From Erwinia sp. JUb26 (GTDB taxonomy: Bacteria > Pseudomonadota > Gammaproteobacteria > Enterobacterales > Enterobacteriaceae), in NCBI RefSeq assembly GCF_003751505.1, contig NZ_RJVB01000005.1:124001-188000 (forward strand): a DNA stretch of 64,000 nucleotides, in the 5' to 3' direction. Under the pieces are notes generated by a model that did no database searches, was not told the DNA's origin, and saw nothing but the letters and a program-made list of their open reading frames with translations. This document shows positions 16,309-52,578 of this stretch, in pieces. Position 1 is the first letter of the stretch, and every line of letters starts with the position of its first letter. The translations under genes were made by a program, and so were the position numbers.

Positions 16309-16500
16309 CGGGTGGCGGCTACGGCTGGCGGTCCTCGCGCCACGCTCTGCGTGGTCCCTTCACGTCGTTCGTCAGCCGGGCGGACCGGCTCAGACGGCAC
16401 ATCCGTGTGCCGACCGAGCCTTGCGCCCGCGTCCTGCGGGCTTATCCTGGCTTCCTCTCTCCGCTCAGCGCTGCGGATTGCCCGTCGTAGCCGCCACCCG
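16309..16500 (-). repeat. Structured palindromic repeat, type I, copy 1
   Basis: 192 bp closed by a perfect 15-bp terminal inverted repeat, CGGGTGGCGGCTACG (16309-16323) and CGTAGCCGCCACCCG (16486-16500). On the minus strand it carries, in order, GGCAATCCGCAGCGCTGAG, the GCCCGC-AGGAC-GCGGGC hairpin, GGCACA/TGTGCC and GCCGG/CCGGC hairpins, the CCACGC-N3-GCGTGG hairpin and GGCGCGAGGACCGCC. Same length as the two type I copies at 23420 and 23777, and the flanks (GTCACGGCG on one side, GCACCAGAC on the other) are shared too. Confidence 0.9.
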
Positions 16501-16611
16501 TCCTCGCCGTGACTTTTGAGTTGTCTTCAGATCAGACAACATCTGTGTCAGTCATCAAATGGAAATTGGTGTTGTGCCAGGCTGTATAGCCACCCTGATG
16601 CCCTTTATTTA

Positions 16612-16651
16612 GACAGCGCTGCGGGTTGCTCACCGTAACCGCAACTCGTCC
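16612..16651 (-). repeat. Decayed end of a type I repeat
   Basis: About 40 bases (CAGCGCTGCGGGTTGC... GTAACCGCAACTCGTC) align with the last 40 bases of copy 1 at 16466-16505 with several substitutions. A relic without a partner arm. Confidence 0.6.
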
Positions 16652-16684
16652 GAGATGTGAATAAGAAAAACAACCTGCGAGCAA

Positions 16685-17017
16685 GCCTTAACTCTTCTAA
16701 TACAGCGACAAAAATCCCATGAAGGTGCACAGCATCTGCCGGGGATACCGGGCAATACGCAGCGCTGAGGTGGAAGCAGCTGGCCAGGAGACACCGACAG
16801 GACGTCGGTGTCAGGCGAAGTCGGGTCAGGGACGACACGTCTTCGGCGGTCCGCCCGCCCGGATGCTGAAACTGAAGGCATCACGCAGCGCGTGGCGCGA
16901 GGACCGCCCGGGAACCCCGGCAGAGGCTGGGAACCCGGCACGGTTTTATTAGCGACTAGATTTATCGGGCCGCCCGACGCCTCCCCGACATCACATACCC
17001 GGCACAGGCGCAGGCCG
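16685..17017. repeat. Tandem duplication, copy A (repeat plus permease 3' end)
   Basis: 333 bases that recur with few changes at 17079-17405 (offset 394). It comprises the leader GCCTTAACTCTTCTAATACA, one type II structured repeat and, at its right end, about 65 bases matching the last codons and stop region of the APC permease gene. It shows that the permease 3' end was copied together with the repeat. Confidence 0.92.
16730..16929 (+). repeat. Structured palindromic repeat, type II, copy 1
   Basis: 200 bp with terminal arms CAGCATCTGCCGGGG (16730-16744) and CCCCGGCAGAGGCTG (16915-16929), 14 of 15 positions paired. Internal order: a GGCAATACGCAGCGCTGAG box, then a 9-bp hairpin GACACCGAC/GTCGGTGTC with the same AGGAC loop as type I, GGCGG/CCGCC, a CACGC-N3-GCGTG hairpin and GGCGCGAGGACCGCC. 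Confidence 0.9.
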
Positions 17018-17078
17018 TGACTATTGAGCTGTCTGTCCAGTAGAACACTTTCTCCGAATTCCCATGCTGGACGCCATA

Positions 17079-17405
17079 GCCTTAACTCTTCTAATACAGC
17101 GACAAAAATCCCATGAAGGTGCACAGCAGGGGATACCGGGCAATCCGCAGCGCTGAGGTGGAAGCGGCTGGCCAGGAGACACCGACAGGACGTCGGTGTC
17201 AGGCGACGTCGGGTCAGGGACGACACGTCTTCGGCGGTCCGCCCGGCCGGATGCTGAAACCGAAGGCATCACGCAGCGCGTGACGCGAGGACCGCCCGGG
17301 AGCCCCGGCAGAGGCTGAGAACCCGGCACCGTTTTATGAGCGACTAGATTTGTCGAGCCGCCCGACGCCTCCCCGACATCACATACCCGGCACAGGCGCA
17401 GGCCG
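17079..17405. repeat. Tandem duplication, copy B (overlaps permease gene 3' end)
   Basis: 327 bases matching 16685-17017. Its right end (17344-17405) is the functional 3' end of the APC permease gene. It differs from copy A by a small deletion in the left arm of the repeat and scattered substitutions. Confidence 0.92.
17120..17317 (+). repeat. Structured palindromic repeat, type II, copy 2 (left arm shortened)
   Basis: Same modules as the copy at 16730, but the left arm has lost about 6-8 bases (GCACAGCAGGGG instead of GCACAGCATCTGCCGGGG), so the closing stem is impaired. Right arm CCCCGGCAGAGGCTG at 17303-17317 is intact. Confidence 0.85.
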
Positions 17406-18735
17406 CAATAAACCACGGAATAAACTTAATCAGCGCCGAATCACTGCCGCTAATCAACTGCAAATTATCAATCACCAACACAATCGTTATCAGCATAAAA
17501 ATAATCGCCAGCAGCGGTGCCCAGAACACCTGCCACGCGCCGTTATCATGCTTAACGCGATAACGGAAAAACACGATAACCGCCGCCGAAACCCCCACCT
17601 GCAGCATCAGAATCGCCAGCGTGGCAATCGCCGAACCGAAGGCGAAAATATGCACCATCGGATCCATATTGGTACTGCCCATCCCCACCAGCAGCAGCAG
17701 TAAAATCACACTGTGCATATGGCTGGCCTTGTGCGGCGTTCCGTTGGTCGGATGCGTCTCCGACAGCTCCTTCCAGATCAACCCGTCGCGGCTGATGCTG
17801 TAGATATAGCGCGAAATATTGTTGTGGAAGGCCAGCGTGGCGGCAAACAAGCTGGTAATCAGCAGCACCGACATGGTTTCAACCGCCCACTGGCCGACGT
17901 ACTGCCGGGTGATATCAAACACGAAGTTGCCGGGATCTTTACTGGCAATCGCCGCAATCTGCTCAAAGCCGTAGACCTGCACAAACGACCAGCTGGTAAA
18001 ACAGAAGAAGGCGGTAATAATCACCAGCGCACAAATGGTGGCGCGCGGAATGGTTTTCTTCGGATCGCGGCACTCCTCGGCATAGATCGCCGTGGACTCA
18101 AAGCCGATAAATGCGGCGATGGAAAATACAAAGGCAATGCCGAGATTGCCGTGCATAAACACCGAGGGCTCAAACGAGCTGAAGTTCAGCGGGCCGCTCT
18201 TTTTCAACAGAATCATCACGTCGGTCAGCAGCACAATCGCCACCTCGGCCAGCATCAGCACGCCCAGCAGCTTGCCGCCGACCTCAACCCGCTTGATGCC
18301 CAGCACCCAGGCAATCACCGCAAACAGCATGCTCAGTGCCCACCAGGGAATGTGTGCGGCCAGATGCTGTTCCAGGAACAGGCTGCTGAAGAAACCGAGC
18401 ATCGCCATAATCGCCGTCTGCACCGAGAAATAGGCCAGCAGCGCCAGCATCGAAGCCGATGCGCCCCAGCTTTCGCCCAGCCCCTTCGAGATATAGGTAT
18501 AGAACGCCCCTGCATCGGTGACGTAGCGGCTCATGGTCAGATAGCCGACGGAAAACAGCATCAGGATCAGGCAGGCGATAATATAAACAACCGGTATGCC
18601 GCCGCCGTTGCCGGTGAAAATCGCCACCGGCAGCCCGCCGACGACCCCGGTAAGGGGTGAGGCCGCCGCCACAACAAAGAACACCAGGGAGGAAAGTCCG
18701 AGGGTATTTTTTCGTAAACCGCTTGAGTTACTCAT
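17344..18735 (-). CDS. APC-family amino acid/amine permease
   Basis: 463 residues, about 12 membrane segments, amino acid-polyamine-organocation superfamily. Typical features are the N-terminal GLSSLVFFVVAAASPLTGVVGG and the mid-protein FIGFESTAIYAEECRDPKKTIPRA block. It lies downstream of an AraC regulator on the same strand and faces a divergent amine/amino-acid oxidation operon, so it probably imports that pathway's substrate. The last ~20 codons (GYVMSGRRRAARQI) lie inside the tandem duplication, and a second, non-functional copy of this 3' end is found at about 16953-17017. Confidence 0.87.
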   Translation of the reverse strand: MSNSSGLRKNTLGLSSLVFFVVAAASPLTGVVGGLPVAIFTGNGGGIPVVYIIACLILMLFSVGYLTMSRYVTDAGAFYTYISKGLGESWGASASMLALLAYFSVQTAIMAMLGFFSSLFLEQHLAAHIPWWALSMLFAVIAWVLGIKRVEVGGKLLGVLMLAEVAIVLLTDVMILLKKSGPLNFSSFEPSVFMHGNLGIAFVFSIAAFIGFESTAIYAEECRDPKKTIPRATICALVIITAFFCFTSWSFVQVYGFEQIAAIASKDPGNFVFDITRQYVGQWAVETMSVLLITSLFAATLAFHNNISRYIYSISRDGLIWKELSETHPTNGTPHKASHMHSVILLLLLVGMGSTNMDPMVHIFAFGSAIATLAILMLQVGVSAAVIVFFRYRVKHDNGAWQVFWAPLLAIIFMLITIVLVIDNLQLISGSDSALIKFIPWFIAACACAGYVMSGRRRAARQI

Positions 18736-18928
18736 CGCCAGCGCCTTATTACAGAGTGAAATCGAACTCAGAGAAGCGCGCTTTTCTGAGCTGGGAACTG
18801 ATATGCATCATTTCCCAGCGGTGAGGGCGGCGATAGAAAAAATCGGACAGTACGGCGGTGCAACACCTGCACCATTTCAGTGCTACTTTCTGCTAACGGG
18901 TCGCTAACCTTGCGCTAACGACCGGGGC

Positions 18929-19762
18929 TCAGTGATGACGAATACGACCGTTGTAGGACTCGTGCAGCGTGCGGCGCTGATAGTCCAGCGGTGTGGTGCT
19001 GACCAGTTTTTTGAACTCGCGCAGGAAGTGCGACTGGTCGCTGAAACCCAGGTCCAGCGCGAGGTCGGAAAACGATACCGCGCCCTGCTGATGCAGGCTG
19101 TTCAACGCAGCCTGGCAGCGCATAATGCGGCCAAAGGTTTTCGGCGACATCCCGGTATCCTGCCTGAACTGGCGCTGAATGGTCCGGCAGGTGTAGCCGG
19201 TCAGCGACTCCAGCTGCTCAATGCGAATATTGCCCTTTTGCCGCAGGATCGTTTGAATACTCACCCCGGTCACGGCGGACGTCTTGCGCACCAGTCGCGA
19301 GGTAAAGTGCTGATTAAACAACTCTATCTGTCGCGAGAACTGCGAATGACGCAGGATCTGCTCGCAGGCCAGCCGGGCATCCGGCACCACGTCCAGAAAG
19401 TTAAACTCACGGTCGGTTAACTCCTCCGCCACCAGATCGAGAAAGTCCGGAACCACCCCCGGCGCGAAGCGTACGCCGAAGTAGCGGTGATCGCGGATGA
19501 GCTCCGCGCTGCGCGCCTCCAGCGTGGTGCCGCATACCCGCGCGACCGGCTTAACCGCATCACAGTCAAACACGATATCCACGCAGCCGTCCGGGATCGC
19601 CAGCGTCAGGCTGGCGGAGTGCGCCACGTCAAAACTGTAGAAGTGCGCAATGGCCGGATGTCGGGAGGCCATCAGCGAATACTGATGCGCTGCGCTAAGC
19701 ACAAACCACGGCTGTTCCGGCTGGATAACGGCGCTCTGGCCGCAGACAAGATCGTGTGACAT
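18929..19762 (-). CDS. AraC-family transcriptional regulator
   Basis: 277 residues from the ATG at 19762 (a GGGA ribosome site lies six bases upstream; an in-frame TTG at 19798 would add 12 residues). The C-terminal third has the double helix-turn-helix of AraC regulators: IEQLESLTGYTCRTIQRQFR and FSDLALDLGFSDQSHFLREFKK. The N-terminal part is a DUF6597-like ligand domain (AIPDGCVDIVFDCD). It is divergent from the cyclodeaminase/Rid/oxidoreductase operon and upstream of the permease, and likely activates both. Confidence 0.87.
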   Translation of the reverse strand: MSHDLVCGQSAVIQPEQPWFVLSAAHQYSLMASRHPAIAHFYSFDVAHSASLTLAIPDGCVDIVFDCDAVKPVARVCGTTLEARSAELIRDHRYFGVRFAPGVVPDFLDLVAEELTDREFNFLDVVPDARLACEQILRHSQFSRQIELFNQHFTSRLVRKTSAVTGVSIQTILRQKGNIRIEQLESLTGYTCRTIQRQFRQDTGMSPKTFGRIMRCQAALNSLHQQGAVSFSDLALDLGFSDQSHFLREFKKLVSTTPLDYQRRTLHESYNGRIRHH

Positions 19763-19930
19763 AGGCATTCCCGCATAGCAATGATGATGGTCAGTCAATG
19801 CAATCGGGGTGCCACTTCCGTTTTGGCGCTTTTCGGCGCGTGTCGCAAATATTCAATACAGCCCTGGCAGCCGCACGATATTCATAAACGCAATTCCTGC
19901 GCTATCACCCGTTTTCCAGAGGCGACCGAG

Positions 19931-21070
19931 ATGACCGACAACACCAGAATTGATTTTCTCTACCTTTCCGAGCAGGACATGATCCGCGCCGGAGTCACCG
20001 ATATGGCGAGCTGTGTCGATACGATGGAGGAGATGTTCGGCCTGCTGTATCAGGGCGACTATCGCATGGCCGGGGCCAACAACGACTCCCACGGCGCGAT
20101 GGTCACCTTCCCTGAAAACTCGCCGTTTCCCACCATGCCGAAACCGACGGCCGATCGCCGTCTGATGGCGATGCCCGCCTACCTCGGCGGCAGCTTTTGC
20201 ACTGCCGGAGTGAAGTGGTACGGCTCGAACATCGCCAACCGCCAGAAGGGGTTACCGCGCTCGATCCTGATGTTCACCCTCAACGACGCCGACACCGGTG
20301 CGCCGCTGGCGCATATGTCCGCTAACCTGCTGTCCGCCTACCGCACCGGCGCGGTGCCGGGGGTCGGTGCCCGTCATCTGGCGCGTAAAGATTCCAAAGT
20401 GATTGGCCTGCTGGGGCCGGGCGTGATGGGCAAAACCGCCGTCGCCGCGTTTCTCGCCGTCTGCCCGCAGATCGATACCATCAAGGTGAAAGGGCGCGGG
20501 CAGCGCAGCCTGGATAATTTTATCTCCTGGGTGGCCGCCACCTGGCCGCAGATCGCCACCGTGAAGGTGGTGGATACCCTCGAAGAGGTGGTGCGCGGAT
20601 CCGATATCGTCACCTACTGCAGCTCCGGCGAAGTGGGCGATCCGGCGACCTATCCGATCGTGAAACGCGAATGGGTGAAGCCCGGTGCGTTCCTCGCGAT
20701 GCCCGCGCTGTGCAATATCGACGAAGGGATGGAGCAGCCCGAGGTACGCAAGGTGCTGGATAACACCGGCCTGTATCACGCCTGGTACGAAGAGGTGCCC
20801 AAACCCGCCCACCATACCATCCCGGTTATCGGCGTGCGCTTTATGGACATGCTTGCCGCCGGGCAGCTGGCTCCCGAGCAGCTGGAAGACATCGGCAAAA
20901 TCATCGCCGGGGACGCGCCGGGCCGCCTGAATGACGAAGAGATCATCATTATGTCGGTCGGGGGAATGCCGGTCGAGGATGTGGCCTGGGGCACGGTGGT
21001 TTACCGCAATGCGCTGGCTAACAACATCGGCGTCAAGCTGAACCTGTGGGACAGCCCGGCGCTGAGCTGA
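19931..21070 (+). CDS. Ornithine cyclodeaminase/mu-crystallin family enzyme
   Basis: 379 residues. The NAD-binding Rossmann motif is GLLGPGVMGKTAVAAF around residue 160, preceded by the substrate-site block KWYGSNIANRQKGLPRS. Members convert ornithine to proline, reduce cyclic imines or act as amino-acid dehydrogenases. The family member with EutC function acts in hydroxyectoine breakdown, but sequence alone cannot choose. ATG 19931 follows AGAGG; the open frame extends 150 bases further upstream, across the divergent promoter region, without a ribosome site. First gene of a three-gene operon. Confidence 0.85.
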   Translation: MTDNTRIDFLYLSEQDMIRAGVTDMASCVDTMEEMFGLLYQGDYRMAGANNDSHGAMVTFPENSPFPTMPKPTADRRLMAMPAYLGGSFCTAGVKWYGSNIANRQKGLPRSILMFTLNDADTGAPLAHMSANLLSAYRTGAVPGVGARHLARKDSKVIGLLGPGVMGKTAVAAFLAVCPQIDTIKVKGRGQRSLDNFISWVAATWPQIATVKVVDTLEEVVRGSDIVTYCSSGEVGDPATYPIVKREWVKPGAFLAMPALCNIDEGMEQPEVRKVLDNTGLYHAWYEEVPKPAHHTIPVIGVRFMDMLAAGQLAPEQLEDIGKIIAGDAPGRLNDEEIIIMSVGGMPVEDVAWGTVVYRNALANNIGVKLNLWDSPALS

Positions 21071-21124
21071 ACCGATTTTCACACGCCAATACCCCTGACA
21101 TTTTCACCTGAATGGAATAACTAC

Positions 21125-21547
21125 ATGACCAGAATCATCAAAGTAAAAACCGGATCGATCTTCGAAGAAAAAGCCAGCTACTCGCGCGTAGTGGCCGTCG
21201 ATAACTGGATCTACGTTTCCAATACCGCCGGGCGCAACCCGCAGACCAAAGAGATCCCCGAGGACATTGCCGAGCAGACGCAGCAGGTGTTTGCCAATGT
21301 TGAACAGGCGCTGGCGGCGGTTGATGCCACACTGGCTGACGTGATTTGTTCACGTCTCTTTATTCAGGATCCTGCCGATATCCATACGGTGATGGCCATC
21401 GTCGGCGAGAAATTCCGCGGTATAGATCCCGCCTTAACGGCTACCTGCCCGCCGCTGGGTTCCACGGTGTACAAAGTGGAACTGGAGGTCACCGCCTACC
21501 GTGGCGCTTCCACGGCCAGCGTTGAAAATATTAACGTTTCTCTCTAA
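21125..21547 (+). CDS. Rid-family (YjgF/UK114) protein, atypical
   Basis: 140 residues of the small trimeric Rid fold. The canonical RidA Arg, expected in an ARSC-type motif near residue 105, is replaced here (ALTATCPPLGS), so this is probably not a classical 2-aminoacrylate deaminase but one of the other Rid subfamilies that accompany oxidases and amino-acid enzymes. Located 54 bases after the cyclodeaminase-like gene and 28 bases before the FAD oxidoreductase gene, it probably handles an imine produced by that enzyme. Confidence 0.85.
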   Translation: MTRIIKVKTGSIFEEKASYSRVVAVDNWIYVSNTAGRNPQTKEIPEDIAEQTQQVFANVEQALAAVDATLADVICSRLFIQDPADIHTVMAIVGEKFRGIDPALTATCPPLGSTVYKVELEVTAYRGASTASVENINVSL

Positions 21548-21575
21548 TTCCACTCAGCATAAGAAGGTGATGGCG

Positions 21576-22868
21576 ATGGCACCTGCGATAACGCCGGTAC
21601 AAACGTCCGCGAACTTCCCGCCGGAAACCACGGTGGTGATTATTGGCGGTGGCATAGTCGGCCTGACGGCGGCGCTGACGCTGGCGGAGCGCAATATTCC
21701 GGTGGTGGTGCTGGAAAAGGGCCGCATTGCGGGTGAACAGTCCTCCCGAAATCTCGGCTGGGTGCGCAAAACCAGCCGCCTGGCCGAGGATATTCCGCTG
21801 GCGCAGGCCGCCGATCGGCTATGGGCCGAGATGCCCGCGCGGGTCGGCAGCGATGTTGGCTACCGCCAGGCGGGGATTATGTTTGCCGCCCGCACGGATG
21901 CGCAGATGGCGATGTACGAAGGCTGGCTGAAATCGGTCAGTCCTCTGCAGCTTGATTCCCGCCTGCTAAGCGCGCAGCAGATCGCTGGTCAGGTGCCGGG
22001 CGGCGGCAGCCAGTGGGCCGGGGGGATCTTCACCCCCTCCGACGGGCGGGCGGAGCCGACGCTGGCCTCCAGCGCCATTGCCCGCGCGGCGATGGCCAAA
22101 GGGGCGGTGATTGTTGAGCACTGCGCGGTGCGCACGCTGACCACGGCAGCGGGCAGGGTCAGCGGCGTGGTGACTGAACGGGGAGAAATCCGCTGTGAGC
22201 AGGTATTGCTGGCCGGGGGGATCTGGTCAAGGCGCCTGCTGGGCAATCTGGGGATTTCGCTGCCGGTGCTACCGCTGGTGTGCTCGGTGCTGCGCACGAA
22301 GCCGATGGACGGGCCGACGGAGATTGCCGTCGGCGCGCCGGATTTCTCCTTTCGCAAGCATATCGACGGCGGCTTTATCGTCACCCAGCGCGGGGCGCTG
22401 GACGCTTCGCTGACGCTGGATCATCTGCTGCTGGGAACGCGCTATCTGCCGCAGCTACGGGCGCAGCGCGACTTTCTACGGATTAAAATCGGCACGCCGT
22501 TTGTCCGCAATCTGATGCTGGCGCGGCGCTGGCGGGCCAGCAGTCGCACGCCGTTCGAGCGGGTACGCACGATAGATCCAGCGGTCAATGCATCGCTGAA
22601 TCAGGAGGCGTTAACCAACCTCCGGGCGGCGTGGCCGGTGTTTGCTCAGGCGGAAATTGCCGAAGCCTGGGCCGGGACAATCGATGTGACGCCGGATTCC
22701 AATCCGGTTATCGGCCCGGTGGCGAAGTTGCCCGGTCTGACGCTGGCGACCGGTTTTTCCGGGCACGGTTTCGGCACTTCACCGGCGGCAGGGCAGCTGG
22801 CGGCGGATTTGGTGTGTGGGCATGCGCCGCTGATCGATCCTGCGCCGTACCGGTTCGATCGGTTTTGA
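21576..22868 (+). CDS. FAD-dependent amine/amino-acid oxidoreductase (DAO family)
   Basis: 430 residues of the D-amino-acid oxidase/sarcosine oxidase superfamily. The N-terminal FAD motif VVIIGGGIVGLTAALTLAE is near residue 20. The C-terminal FAD-contact block is TPDSNPVIGP ... GFSGHGFGTSPAAGQLAADL. It oxidises a secondary amine or D-amino acid to an imine. The start at 21576 was chosen because AAGAAGG lies eight bases upstream (ATG 21570 is too close). The stop is followed after about 15 bases by the repeat locus at 22.9 kb. Confidence 0.87.
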   Translation: MAPAITPVQTSANFPPETTVVIIGGGIVGLTAALTLAERNIPVVVLEKGRIAGEQSSRNLGWVRKTSRLAEDIPLAQAADRLWAEMPARVGSDVGYRQAGIMFAARTDAQMAMYEGWLKSVSPLQLDSRLLSAQQIAGQVPGGGSQWAGGIFTPSDGRAEPTLASSAIARAAMAKGAVIVEHCAVRTLTTAAGRVSGVVTERGEIRCEQVLLAGGIWSRRLLGNLGISLPVLPLVCSVLRTKPMDGPTEIAVGAPDFSFRKHIDGGFIVTQRGALDASLTLDHLLLGTRYLPQLRAQRDFLRIKIGTPFVRNLMLARRWRASSRTPFERVRTIDPAVNASLNQEALTNLRAAWPVFAQAEIAEAWAGTIDVTPDSNPVIGPVAKLPGLTLATGFSGHGFGTSPAAGQLAADLVCGHAPLIDPAPYRFDRF

Positions 22869-22880
22869 GGGTGATGCCGG

Positions 22881-23031
22881 GTCGCGGATAAAACCGTGCC
22901 GGGTTCCCAGCCTCTGCCGATGTCGCGGATAAAACCGTGCTGGGTTCCCAGCCTCTGCCGGGGCTTCCGGGCGGTCCTCGCGTCACGCGTTGCGTGATGC
23001 CTTCGGTTTCAGCATCCGGCCGGGCGGCTTG
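22881..23031 (-). repeat. Truncated type II repeats with duplicated end module
   Basis: A ~39-base module (GTCGCGGATAAAACCGTGC followed by the arm CAGCCTCTGCCG) occurs three times in direct order, at 22881-22919, 22922-22960 and 23041-23079. The second is followed by a truncated element (to about 23031) that still holds the CACGC hairpin and CATCCGGCCGGGCGG but stops before the central hairpins. Confidence 0.85.
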
Positions 23032-23067
23032 GCAAATTTAGTCGCGGATAAAACGGTGCCGGGTTCC

Positions 23068-23267
23068 CAGCCTCTGCCGGTGCTCCCGGGCGGTCCTCGC
23101 GTCACGCGCTGCGTGATGCCTTCGGTTTCAGCATCCGGCCGGGCGGACCGCCGAAGACGTGTCGTCCCTGACCCGACTTCGCCTGACACCGACGTCCTGT
23201 CGGTGTCTCCTGGCCAGCTGCTTCCACCTCAGCGCTGCGGATTGCCCGGTATCCCCGGCAGAGGCTG
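23068..23267 (-). repeat. Structured palindromic repeat, type II, copy 3
   Basis: 200 bp with perfect 13-bp arms CAGCCTCTGCCGG (23068-23080) and CCGGCAGAGGCTG (23255-23267). Opposite orientation to the copies at 16730 and 17120. Central hairpin GACACCGAC/GTCGGTGTC intact. Confidence 0.9.
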
Positions 23268-23419: not shown

Positions 23420-23611
23420 CGGGTGGCGGCTACGGCGGGCAATCCGCAGCGCTGAACGGAGAGAGGAAGCCAGGATAAGCCCTCAGGACGCGTGCGCAAG
23501 GCTCGGTCGGCACACGGATGTGCCGTCTGAGCCGGTCCGCCCGGCTGACGAACGACGTGAAGGCACCACGCAGCGCGTGGCGCGAGGACCGCCAGCCGTA
23601 GCCGCCACCCG
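23420..23611 (+). repeat. Structured palindromic repeat, type I, copy 2
   Basis: 192 bp with perfect 15-bp arms CGGGTGGCGGCTACG (23420-23434) and CGTAGCCGCCACCCG (23597-23611). The AGGAC-loop hairpin is degraded in this copy (GCCCTC/GCGTGC); the CCACGC-N3-GCGTGG hairpin is intact. Confidence 0.9.
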
Positions 23612-23776: not shown

Positions 23777-23968
23777 CGGGTGGCGGCTACGACGGGCAAT
23801 CCGCAGCGCTGAGCGGAGAGAGGAAGCCAGGATAAGCCCGCAGGACGCGGGCGCAAGGCTCGGTCGGCACACGGATGTGCCGTCTGAGCCGGTCCGACCG
23901 GCTGACGAACGACGTGAAGGGACCACGCAGAGCGTGGCGCGAGGACCGCCAGTCGTAGCCGCCACCCG
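23777..23968 (+). repeat. Structured palindromic repeat, type I, copy 3
   Basis: 192 bp with perfect 15-bp arms at 23777-23791 and 23954-23968. Best-preserved copy: the GCCCGC-AGGAC-GCGGGC, GGCACA-CGGA-TGTGCC, GCCGGT-CCG-ACCGGC and CCACGC-AGA-GCGTGG hairpins are all perfect. Confidence 0.92.
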
Positions 23969-23983
23969 TCCGCGCAGTCACCG

Positions 23984-24031
23984 TAAGCACCTAAGCACCT
24001 AAGCACCTAAGCACCTAAGCACCTAAGCACC
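23984..24031. repeat. 8-bp tandem repeat, six units
   Basis: TAAGCACC repeated six times without error, directly after the type I copy and about 57 bases before the ABC exporter stop codon. Copy number is likely to vary between strains through slipped-strand replication. Confidence 0.97.
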
Positions 24032-24088
24032 ACGGTGCCAGACAACAAACTGGAGACACATACATCCACCTCCAAATTGTCGGAAAAA

Positions 24089-51786: not shown

Positions 51787-51984
51787 CGGCCTCTGCGGCG
51801 GCGTCGGGCGGTCCTCGCGCCGCGCTTTGCGCGGTGCCCTCGTCTCCGGCATCTGGCCGACGGACCGTTTGAGAGCGGGCTTCCTGCCCGCGCTCAAACT
51901 GACGCCAGCGTCCCTGCTGTCGTCTCCTGGCCAGCTGCCTCCACCTCAGCGCTGCGGATTGCCACTTTGCCGCCGCAGAGGCCG
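51787..51984 (-). repeat. Structured palindromic repeat, type III
   Basis: 198 bp closed by a perfect 16-bp inverted repeat CGGCCTCTGCGGCGGC (51787-51802) and GCCGCCGCAGAGGCCG (51969-51984). On the minus strand it has the same two conserved boxes as types I and II. The 3' hairpin is CCGCGC-AAA-GCGCGG, and an extra strong hairpin (GTTTGAG... GCCCGC type, about 51867-51900) replaces the middle of types I and II. Confidence 0.9.
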
Positions 51985-52372: not shown

Positions 52373-52578
52373 GCGCTGACGGGTCGCTGTCACGGCTGGC
52401 AATCCACAGCCCTGAGCGGAAAGAGAAAGCCAGGATGTGCCCGCAGGACGCGGGCGCAAGGCTCGGTCGGCACAGGGACGTGACGTCCGAGCCGGTACGA
52501 CCGGCTGACGAACGACGCGAAGGAACCACGCAACGCGTGGCGCGAGGACCGCCAGACGGGGCAGCGACCCGTCAGCGC
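52373..52578 (+). repeat. Structured palindromic repeat, type I variant with new arms
   Basis: 206 bp closed by a perfect 17-bp inverted repeat GCGCTGACGGGTCGCTG (52373-52389) and CAGCGACCCGTCAGCGC (52562-52578). The interior follows type I (GCCCGC-AGGAC-GCGGGC, GCCGGT-ACG-ACCGGC, CCACGC-AAC-GCGTGG), but the arms differ, so both strands of the closing stem have changed together. Confidence 0.92.

Follow-up and report, generated by a model that had tools for sequence, protein, structure and literature searches.

Tandem duplication of a permease gene end

A tandem duplication in the window, the whole 64,000-nucleotide stretch of the plant-associated bacterium Erwinia sp. JUb26 analyzed here, lies in a hairpin-rich repeat array at the end of a block of genes that is flanked by inverted arrays and has opposite orientations in two sister species, and we consider it on balance probable that this description holds jointly with a reading of the repeat as an RNA element with putative CsrA sites. 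The window genome (G000) is of the Erwinia/Pantoea type and comprises 5.37 Mb in 23 contigs. The segments 16684-17017 and 17078-17405 form a direct duplication, and global alignment of the two copies gave 316 of 328 aligned bases identical, with 12 substitutions and 6 gap columns. Two direct repeats make it up, one perfect (16684-16734 and 17078-17128, 51/51 identical) and one with 95% identity (16738-17017 and 17126-17405). An earlier note had described two near-identical stretches here, the second with a shortened arm, and both observations were borne out: its starts (16685 and 17079) are one base off, and the 6 gap columns correspond to one continuous stretch missing from an arm of copy 2. 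Given the length and identity of the copies, a chance origin is not an issue, and taken alone the duplication is an ordinary event.

From the alignments, copy 1 (16684..17017, plus strand) consists of proximal linker, a repeat module and an orphan permease end, and copy 2 (17078..17405, plus strand) is joined to the intact permease. The module in each, termed alpha, occupies 16749..16911 in copy 1 (plus strand; profile and cmsearch), with two GGA-loop hairpins at 16785-16853, and 17138..17299 in copy 2 (plus strand; cmsearch), with a match to RF01731 at 17173-17241. All 12 substitutions fall between the two identical ends (0/100 versus 12/228; Fisher p = 0.02, from a single test whose limits were set after inspection of the data). 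A reading of the table against four other alpha-type copies placed 8 of the 12 changes on copy 1 and 3 on copy 2, with one ambiguous; at one of the 8 copy-1 changes, the copy in a third relative (G027) carries the copy-1 base.

The gene involved encodes an APC-type amino acid permease of 463 aa (17344..18735, minus strand), and the coding sequence runs out, stop included, within repeat-like DNA. Native permease sequence accounts for 49 bases in both copies, 17357-17405 and the orphan end at 16969..17017 (minus strand; genome search and alignment), with 0 differences. Thus the roughly 65 bases of gene end previously claimed for each copy hold as to these 49, and the remainder is the last codons and stop in repeat-like DNA. 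In eight orthologues from the genus, the match to the permease extends as far as residue 459-461 of 463, ruling out that the common end is non-host DNA, and each of the orthologue ends inspected (G008, G033, G016, G032, G019) has its own last residues; the window protein ends in RRAARQI and that of Pantoea coffeiphila 1480 (G008, the sister species) in RRAVRAE, each followed by the stop. Because the orthologues match that far and then diverge into their own last residues, the gene end is host DNA up to residue 459-461. The idea that the orphan end is a mere part of the repeat was also ruled out, since only two genomic places hold the gene end: a 76-base query matched those two and no third across the whole genome (E ≤ 0.001), and the check for the orphan end within the repeat at unrelated loci found none at the same threshold. 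The earlier view of a single copied unit comprising repeat and gene end is therefore upheld, as the end is host coding DNA, conserved in homologues, without a further match in the genome at that threshold and single in P. coffeiphila; the duplicated end is likewise one case in which the repeat has carried host coding sequence.

Comparison with a single-copy relative had been proposed, and P. coffeiphila provides it: both a permease search of its genome and its locus L041 showed one permease end. Of 46 positions in that end, 3 differ from the window, and at each of these the two window copies agree on the window base. Since the P. coffeiphila end is single and both window copies carry the window bases, the duplication is most simply, and probably, younger than the split between the two species.

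The duplication join

The linker between the divergent modules was placed at 16484..16683 by alignment with the left array of P. coffeiphila, and the part of it from 16512 onward (TGACTTTTGAG) serves as left partner in the join. The same alignment defined a spacer of 60 bases (17018..17077) between the copies. No second full copy of this spacer was found in the genome, where a search at E ≤ 1 returned the spacer itself, one 17-base match and one 16-base match. Following the orphan end, the sequence reads TGACTATTGAGCTGTCT and resembles the linker start after a beta module (16512 in the window; about 953 in L041); for the rest of the spacer, the aligned counterpart is the alpha-proximal linker in the left array of P. 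coffeiphila. Judged by this resemblance, the spacer can be read as a linker with an internal deletion; relative to the P. coffeiphila linker, the two window linkers lack different parts. The join shows a 4-base microhomology, GCCG, common to the permease end and the linker start: the permease reads CAGGCCG followed by CAATAA, the copy-1 join CAGGCCG followed by TGACTATTGAG, and the linker start TCGCCG followed by TGACTTTTGAG. Four bases of microhomology can arise by chance. Because the spacer resembles the linker and GCCG is present in both parents, the copied unit was linker, module and gene end together. Slippage or template switching on hairpin-rich DNA may have created the join, and each linker would afterwards have lost a different part.

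Inversion of the gene block between repeat arrays

Alignment with L041 showed that a five-gene block of 5.6 kb (17358..22962) is inverted relative to P. coffeiphila 1480. Besides the permease gene it includes genes for an AraC-type regulator (18929..19798, minus strand; protein scan), a tyramine oxidase subunit B-like protein (19928..21070, plus strand; NF004848, 730.6 bits), what we take to be a RidA-like protein (21125..21547, plus strand) and an FAD-dependent amino acid oxidase-like protein (21561..22868, plus strand; scanned as 21501-22868). Positions 1679-7280 of L041 correspond to window positions 22962-17358, with 92.8% identity over 5607 columns; this segment runs opposite to the window and the flanks, L041 1-618 and 7717-9831, are collinear and the same in both species. 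Because both assemblies are drafts (23 contigs for the window genome and about 30 for P. coffeiphila), the inversion rests on assembled contigs.

Arrays of modules lie on both sides of the block in inverted orientation. To the left is a beta module (16325..16483, minus strand; nhmmer, with cmsearch giving 16324-16483 at 148.7 bits and RF01731 giving 16367-16449 at 48.6 bits), the 5′ end of which faces the linker at its right. The right array, called by profile and cmsearch, contains an alpha module (23086..23247, minus strand) inverted with respect to that at 16749-16911, and two beta modules on the plus strand, 23437..23596 (RF01731 39.2 bits, below the gathering score) and 23794..23953. Partial module copies (22881..23069, minus strand; profile and cmsearch), two of which are spaced 119 bases apart, adjoin the end of the FAD oxidase gene, and partial modules with a spacing of about 119 bases adjoin it in P. 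coffeiphila as well (L041 1447-1719). Because they stand beside the FAD oxidase end in both species despite the inverted block, these partial copies probably predate the inversion. Short tandem units follow the last beta module, of the CACCTAAG type in the window (23985-24035) and of the CACAGTCAC type in P. coffeiphila (L041 7940-7990). The window also holds a second divergent pair of modules, 51804..51964 (minus strand; no RF01731 match at gathering) and 52397..52556 (plus strand; RF01731 46.4 bits), both called by profile and cmsearch.

We propose that the block was turned around in one of the lineages by homologous recombination between the inverted modules on its two sides, and such recombination would also have tended to homogenize the alpha modules. 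No recombinase was recognized among the six neighboring proteins scanned. Alpha modules are 95.8-96.7% identical within the window and 97.8% within P. coffeiphila, as against 93.7-95.5% between the two, and at 5 sites the three window copies agree on one base and both P. coffeiphila copies on another. Higher identity of alpha modules within each genome is what recombination among them would be expected to produce. Beta modules of P. coffeiphila show no such homogenization, with 92.1% identity to each other versus 93.4% to beta 2 of the window. With the sister species for comparison, the locus offers a concrete example of inverted repeats enclosing a catabolic gene block whose orientation differs between species, and also of a host gene end copied together with the repeat.

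Other histories of the locus have to be weighed against this one. An assembly artifact might be suspected, the genome being in draft contigs and the repeats exceeding the length of short reads; because the copies are told apart by the 12 substitutions, the indel and a spacer that has no second full copy, we regard misassembly as very improbable. It is also rather improbable that the duplication predates the species split, with P. coffeiphila having lost a copy and gene conversion having kept the ends identical. Differences at 12 of 328 sites imply that the event is not very recent, and gene conversion among alpha modules is likely, but both permease ends carry the window base at all 3 sites that differ in P. 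coffeiphila, and a second end is absent from L041 and from the matches of the permease search in that genome. We give a little more weight, while still judging it unlikely, to the block having entered the site between GDH and the ABC gene in the manner of a composite transposon, with the inverted arrays as its carriers and the duplicated end as an insertion scar. The G027 site has GDH, repeats and the ABC gene as direct neighbors and lacks both the block and the left inverted array; the permease search found no orthologue in that genome. Elsewhere in the genus, 8/8 stretches bearing the block showed neither of these two genes, GDH or ABC, next to it. Against such an entry, no transposase was recognized among the 4 of 5 block proteins scanned, and P. 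coffeiphila has the block at the same site with the scar absent. We retain a duplication by slippage or template switching, and an inversion by recombination between modules, as the preferred account. As a separate observation, the block-free site of G027 (L106 3922-4941) contains a direct duplication of about 470 bases of array.

Copy number and arrangement of the repeat

The module is about 162 bp long. An exact two-anchor pattern counted at least 98 modules in the window genome, 67 in P. coffeiphila, 109 in G027, 11 in G028 and 7 in G029, with 0 matches in the remaining 32 of 37 genomes of the genus; the reversed pattern, used as a control, gave 0 matches in all genomes. A profile search of the window plus 72 loci from three genomes returned 194 module matches, 170 of them full length, of which 77 came from the window genome. 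Among 114 neighboring pairs no more than 1.5 kb apart, partial modules included, 74 were arranged minus-plus, 20 plus-plus, 18 minus-minus and 2 plus-minus, so that the 5′ ends mostly face each other across the linker. By mechanical ORF calls around 60 clusters, the flanking genes were convergent in 29 cases, codirectional in 25 and divergent in 6; sites common to species enter this tally repeatedly, and individual calls may err, as at the right array of the window, where the opposite-strand ORF of the ABC gene was taken.

We compared sites across species, and in a selection of sites with both flanks matched (26 comparisons involving 17 clusters of the window genome) all 26 were collinear, with the number of full modules differing in 12. 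A further 11 comparisons had one matched flank only, and 11 of 33 loci of the window genome had no counterpart among the P. coffeiphila and G027 loci compared. Change in module copy number is common, and the inversion in the window is the exception in this sample. The earlier suggestion that the repeat promotes or suffers local rearrangement therefore stands in its second half, given the differing module number (12/26) and the inversion of the adjoining block; that the repeat promotes rearrangement, beyond being a place where rearrangement is tolerated, is plausible.

Paired GGA hairpins as putative CsrA sites

We infer that the repeat is a dispersed putative CsrA/RsmA-binding RNA element that suffers recombination. 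Its structure was derived from 66 of the 77 full-length modules of the window genome, 11 having been removed by hand, mostly as near-duplicate copies; median pairwise identity among the 77 is 72%. The consensus contains 31 pairs, 24 of them with compensatory change. Paired cells made up 96.0%, compared to 75.9 ± 0.6 in shuffles and 30-46% in slid versions, although the tested structure was predicted from the same alignment, which favors this score. Covariation was 0.514 versus 0.150 ± 0.008 in shuffles; among paralogues, it could instead reflect selection on single-stranded DNA. The first and second hairpins each carry an A(N)GGA loop in 66/66 modules, with the base preceding GGA varying, and the third hairpin has GGA in its loop in 0/66. 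Single-sequence folds beat shuffles in 3 of the 4 cores tested (z -3.2 to -3.5). The fold of the copy 2 core (17173-17241) was weak (z -1.40, with 21/200 shuffles as good), and the best single fold of copy 2 lacks the second GGA hairpin.

The SELEX consensus for CsrA is given in the passages available of PMC4347634 as RUACARGGAUGU, with ACA and GGA fully conserved and GGA preferred in a hairpin loop. The module would thus act at the RNA level, as two adjacent A(N)GGA hairpins in the form that CsrA/RsmA binds. Since each module has two such hairpins, transcripts through the arrays would carry paired putative CsrA sites. We suggest, tentatively and with less than even confidence, that the roughly 100 copies of this selfish-looking intergenic repeat could form a distributed CsrA/RsmA sponge, a role either acquired or present from the outset, with two high-affinity hairpins added by every copy that is transcribed by read-through from adjacent genes, and that the YPAL repeats of Yersinia and its relatives could be a second, sequence-unrelated case of this design.

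An alternative that we consider unlikely, though less so than the other histories of the locus above, is that the repeat is a DNA-level element of the REP or MITE kind, with its loops kept for recognition as single-stranded DNA by a transposase or other protein and any RNA function incidental. High copy number, intergenic position, divergent pairing and patchy species distribution all fit a mobile repeat. Against this, matches to Y1_Tnp (PF01797) number 0 in the window genome and in P. coffeiphila, with one just above the cut-off in G027; the comparable sites are collinear in 26/26 cases, so little recent mobility is seen there; and 132/132 loops retain A(N)GGA, the motif of CsrA sites. An element acting as RNA remains the reading that we prefer.

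Comparison with known RNAs and repeats

RF01731 (TwoAYGGAY), whose proposal as a CsrA-binding RNA reportedly goes back to Gardner and Eldai, reaches its gathering score (43 bits) in all but two of the 8 full modules in the window, with 6 modules at 46.4-51.5 bits; of the other two, one scored 39.2 bits, below gathering, and one was unreported. As in TwoAYGGAY, two adjacent GGA-loop hairpins are closed by a short stem, but alignment of the window modules is confined to the middle of the 168-position model (43-114 or 43-128); some other copies in the window genome match 1-168. Within the genus, matches occurred in 13/37 genomes, 11 of them above the cut-off, and six genomes besides that of the window had at least 27, counting up to 55 scored candidates per genome; 14 control genomes had 0. 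A family-wide draw with stricter filters, covering up to 13 scored candidates per genome, gave matches in 30/198 genomes, 16 above the cut-off. Four genomes of the genus (G028, G029, G031 and G020) each have at least 27-44 RF01731 matches, but 11, 7, 0 and 0 matches to the module pattern, and their matches may represent distinct variants within one RNA type, each at high copy number. TwoAYGGAY is described, in the parts of the literature consulted, as a candidate RNA of the human gut, gamma-Proteobacteria and Clostridiales (PMC2864571) and has been proposed to bind CsrA (PMC4333381). The same passages contain no description of it as a dispersed Erwinia repeat, or at about 100 copies per genome in divergent pairs, and those on Erwinia and Pantoea repeats, on CsrA with repeats and on inversion hold nothing that describes the module, within a scope that leaves most subscription journals outside. 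The larger finding is a repeat scattered in about 100 copies, each with two GGA hairpins, whose arrays enclose a gene block that occurs in either orientation; its CsrA role is putative.

Among interspersed repeats, the modules resemble REP/BIME and ERIC elements in being dispersed palindromic repeats between genes. REPs are given as 20-40 bp in the excerpts of PMC3733652, compared to about 162 bp for the module, and no REP-type transposase was found in the window genome or in P. coffeiphila. The ERIC consensus is 127 bp long. An origin from REP/RAYT was unsupported, as PF01797 had 0 matches in these two genomes and one of 24.0 bits (cut-off 23) in G027. One further genome, G035, contains 64 Y1_Tnp (PF01797) matches, a large expansion of the REP-type transposase, and 0 matches to the module pattern.

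YPAL/RU-2 of Yersinia, of about 168 bp, is closer in kind, being similar in size, intergenic and of high copy number according to the passages available (PMC2759123, PMC2229807, PMC2267715). Its published sequence, taken from such a passage (PMC2759123), folds into two GGA-loop hairpins inside a long stem, and relatives were found in 37/392 genomes of the family. In an alignment of 12 loci (L145-L156) with the published sequence, GGA was present in the first loop in 11/13 and in the second in 12/13; folded singly, 8/13 had at least two GGA loops and 2/13 had none. The family covariance model, searched against the 12 loci, reached at best 13.3 bits, at a match outside the YPAL copy (L147), followed by 8.4 bits over 20 bases (L150), and RF01731 had no match in these loci at E ≤ 0.1. 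Rfam Ysr224 lies on the strand opposite RU-2 in 12/12 YPAL loci (10 above the gathering score); RF02770 was not reported in the window at the gathering threshold. Because no family-model match was found and Rfam Ysr224 is on the other strand, we regard the likeness of YPAL to the module as one of design, CsrA-like by eye, with the model matches lending no support to common descent. Literature passages on YPAL contain no mention of divergent pairing, and no paper on YPAL with CsrA was found within a scope that likewise leaves out most subscription journals.

The small RNAs CsrB, CsrC and RsmX/Y/Z hold numerous CsrA sites and compete for CsrA, as stated in passages of PMC4333381. Should CsrA bind the modules, these bacteria would rely for global post-transcriptional control on a dispersed repeat and not on CsrB-type genes alone, and the field of interspersed repeats would become linked to Csr regulation. 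If they act as a sponge, the copy number of the repeat and the transcription of many loci would set the free CsrA level, and if the reading of YPAL also holds, dispersed CsrA-site repeats would be a general kind of element in Enterobacterales. For CsrB, CsrC and RsmX/Y/Z, many hairpins are concentrated in a single dedicated gene or a few such genes, whereas the repeat described here spreads its GGA hairpins, two per module, over about 100 scattered modules.
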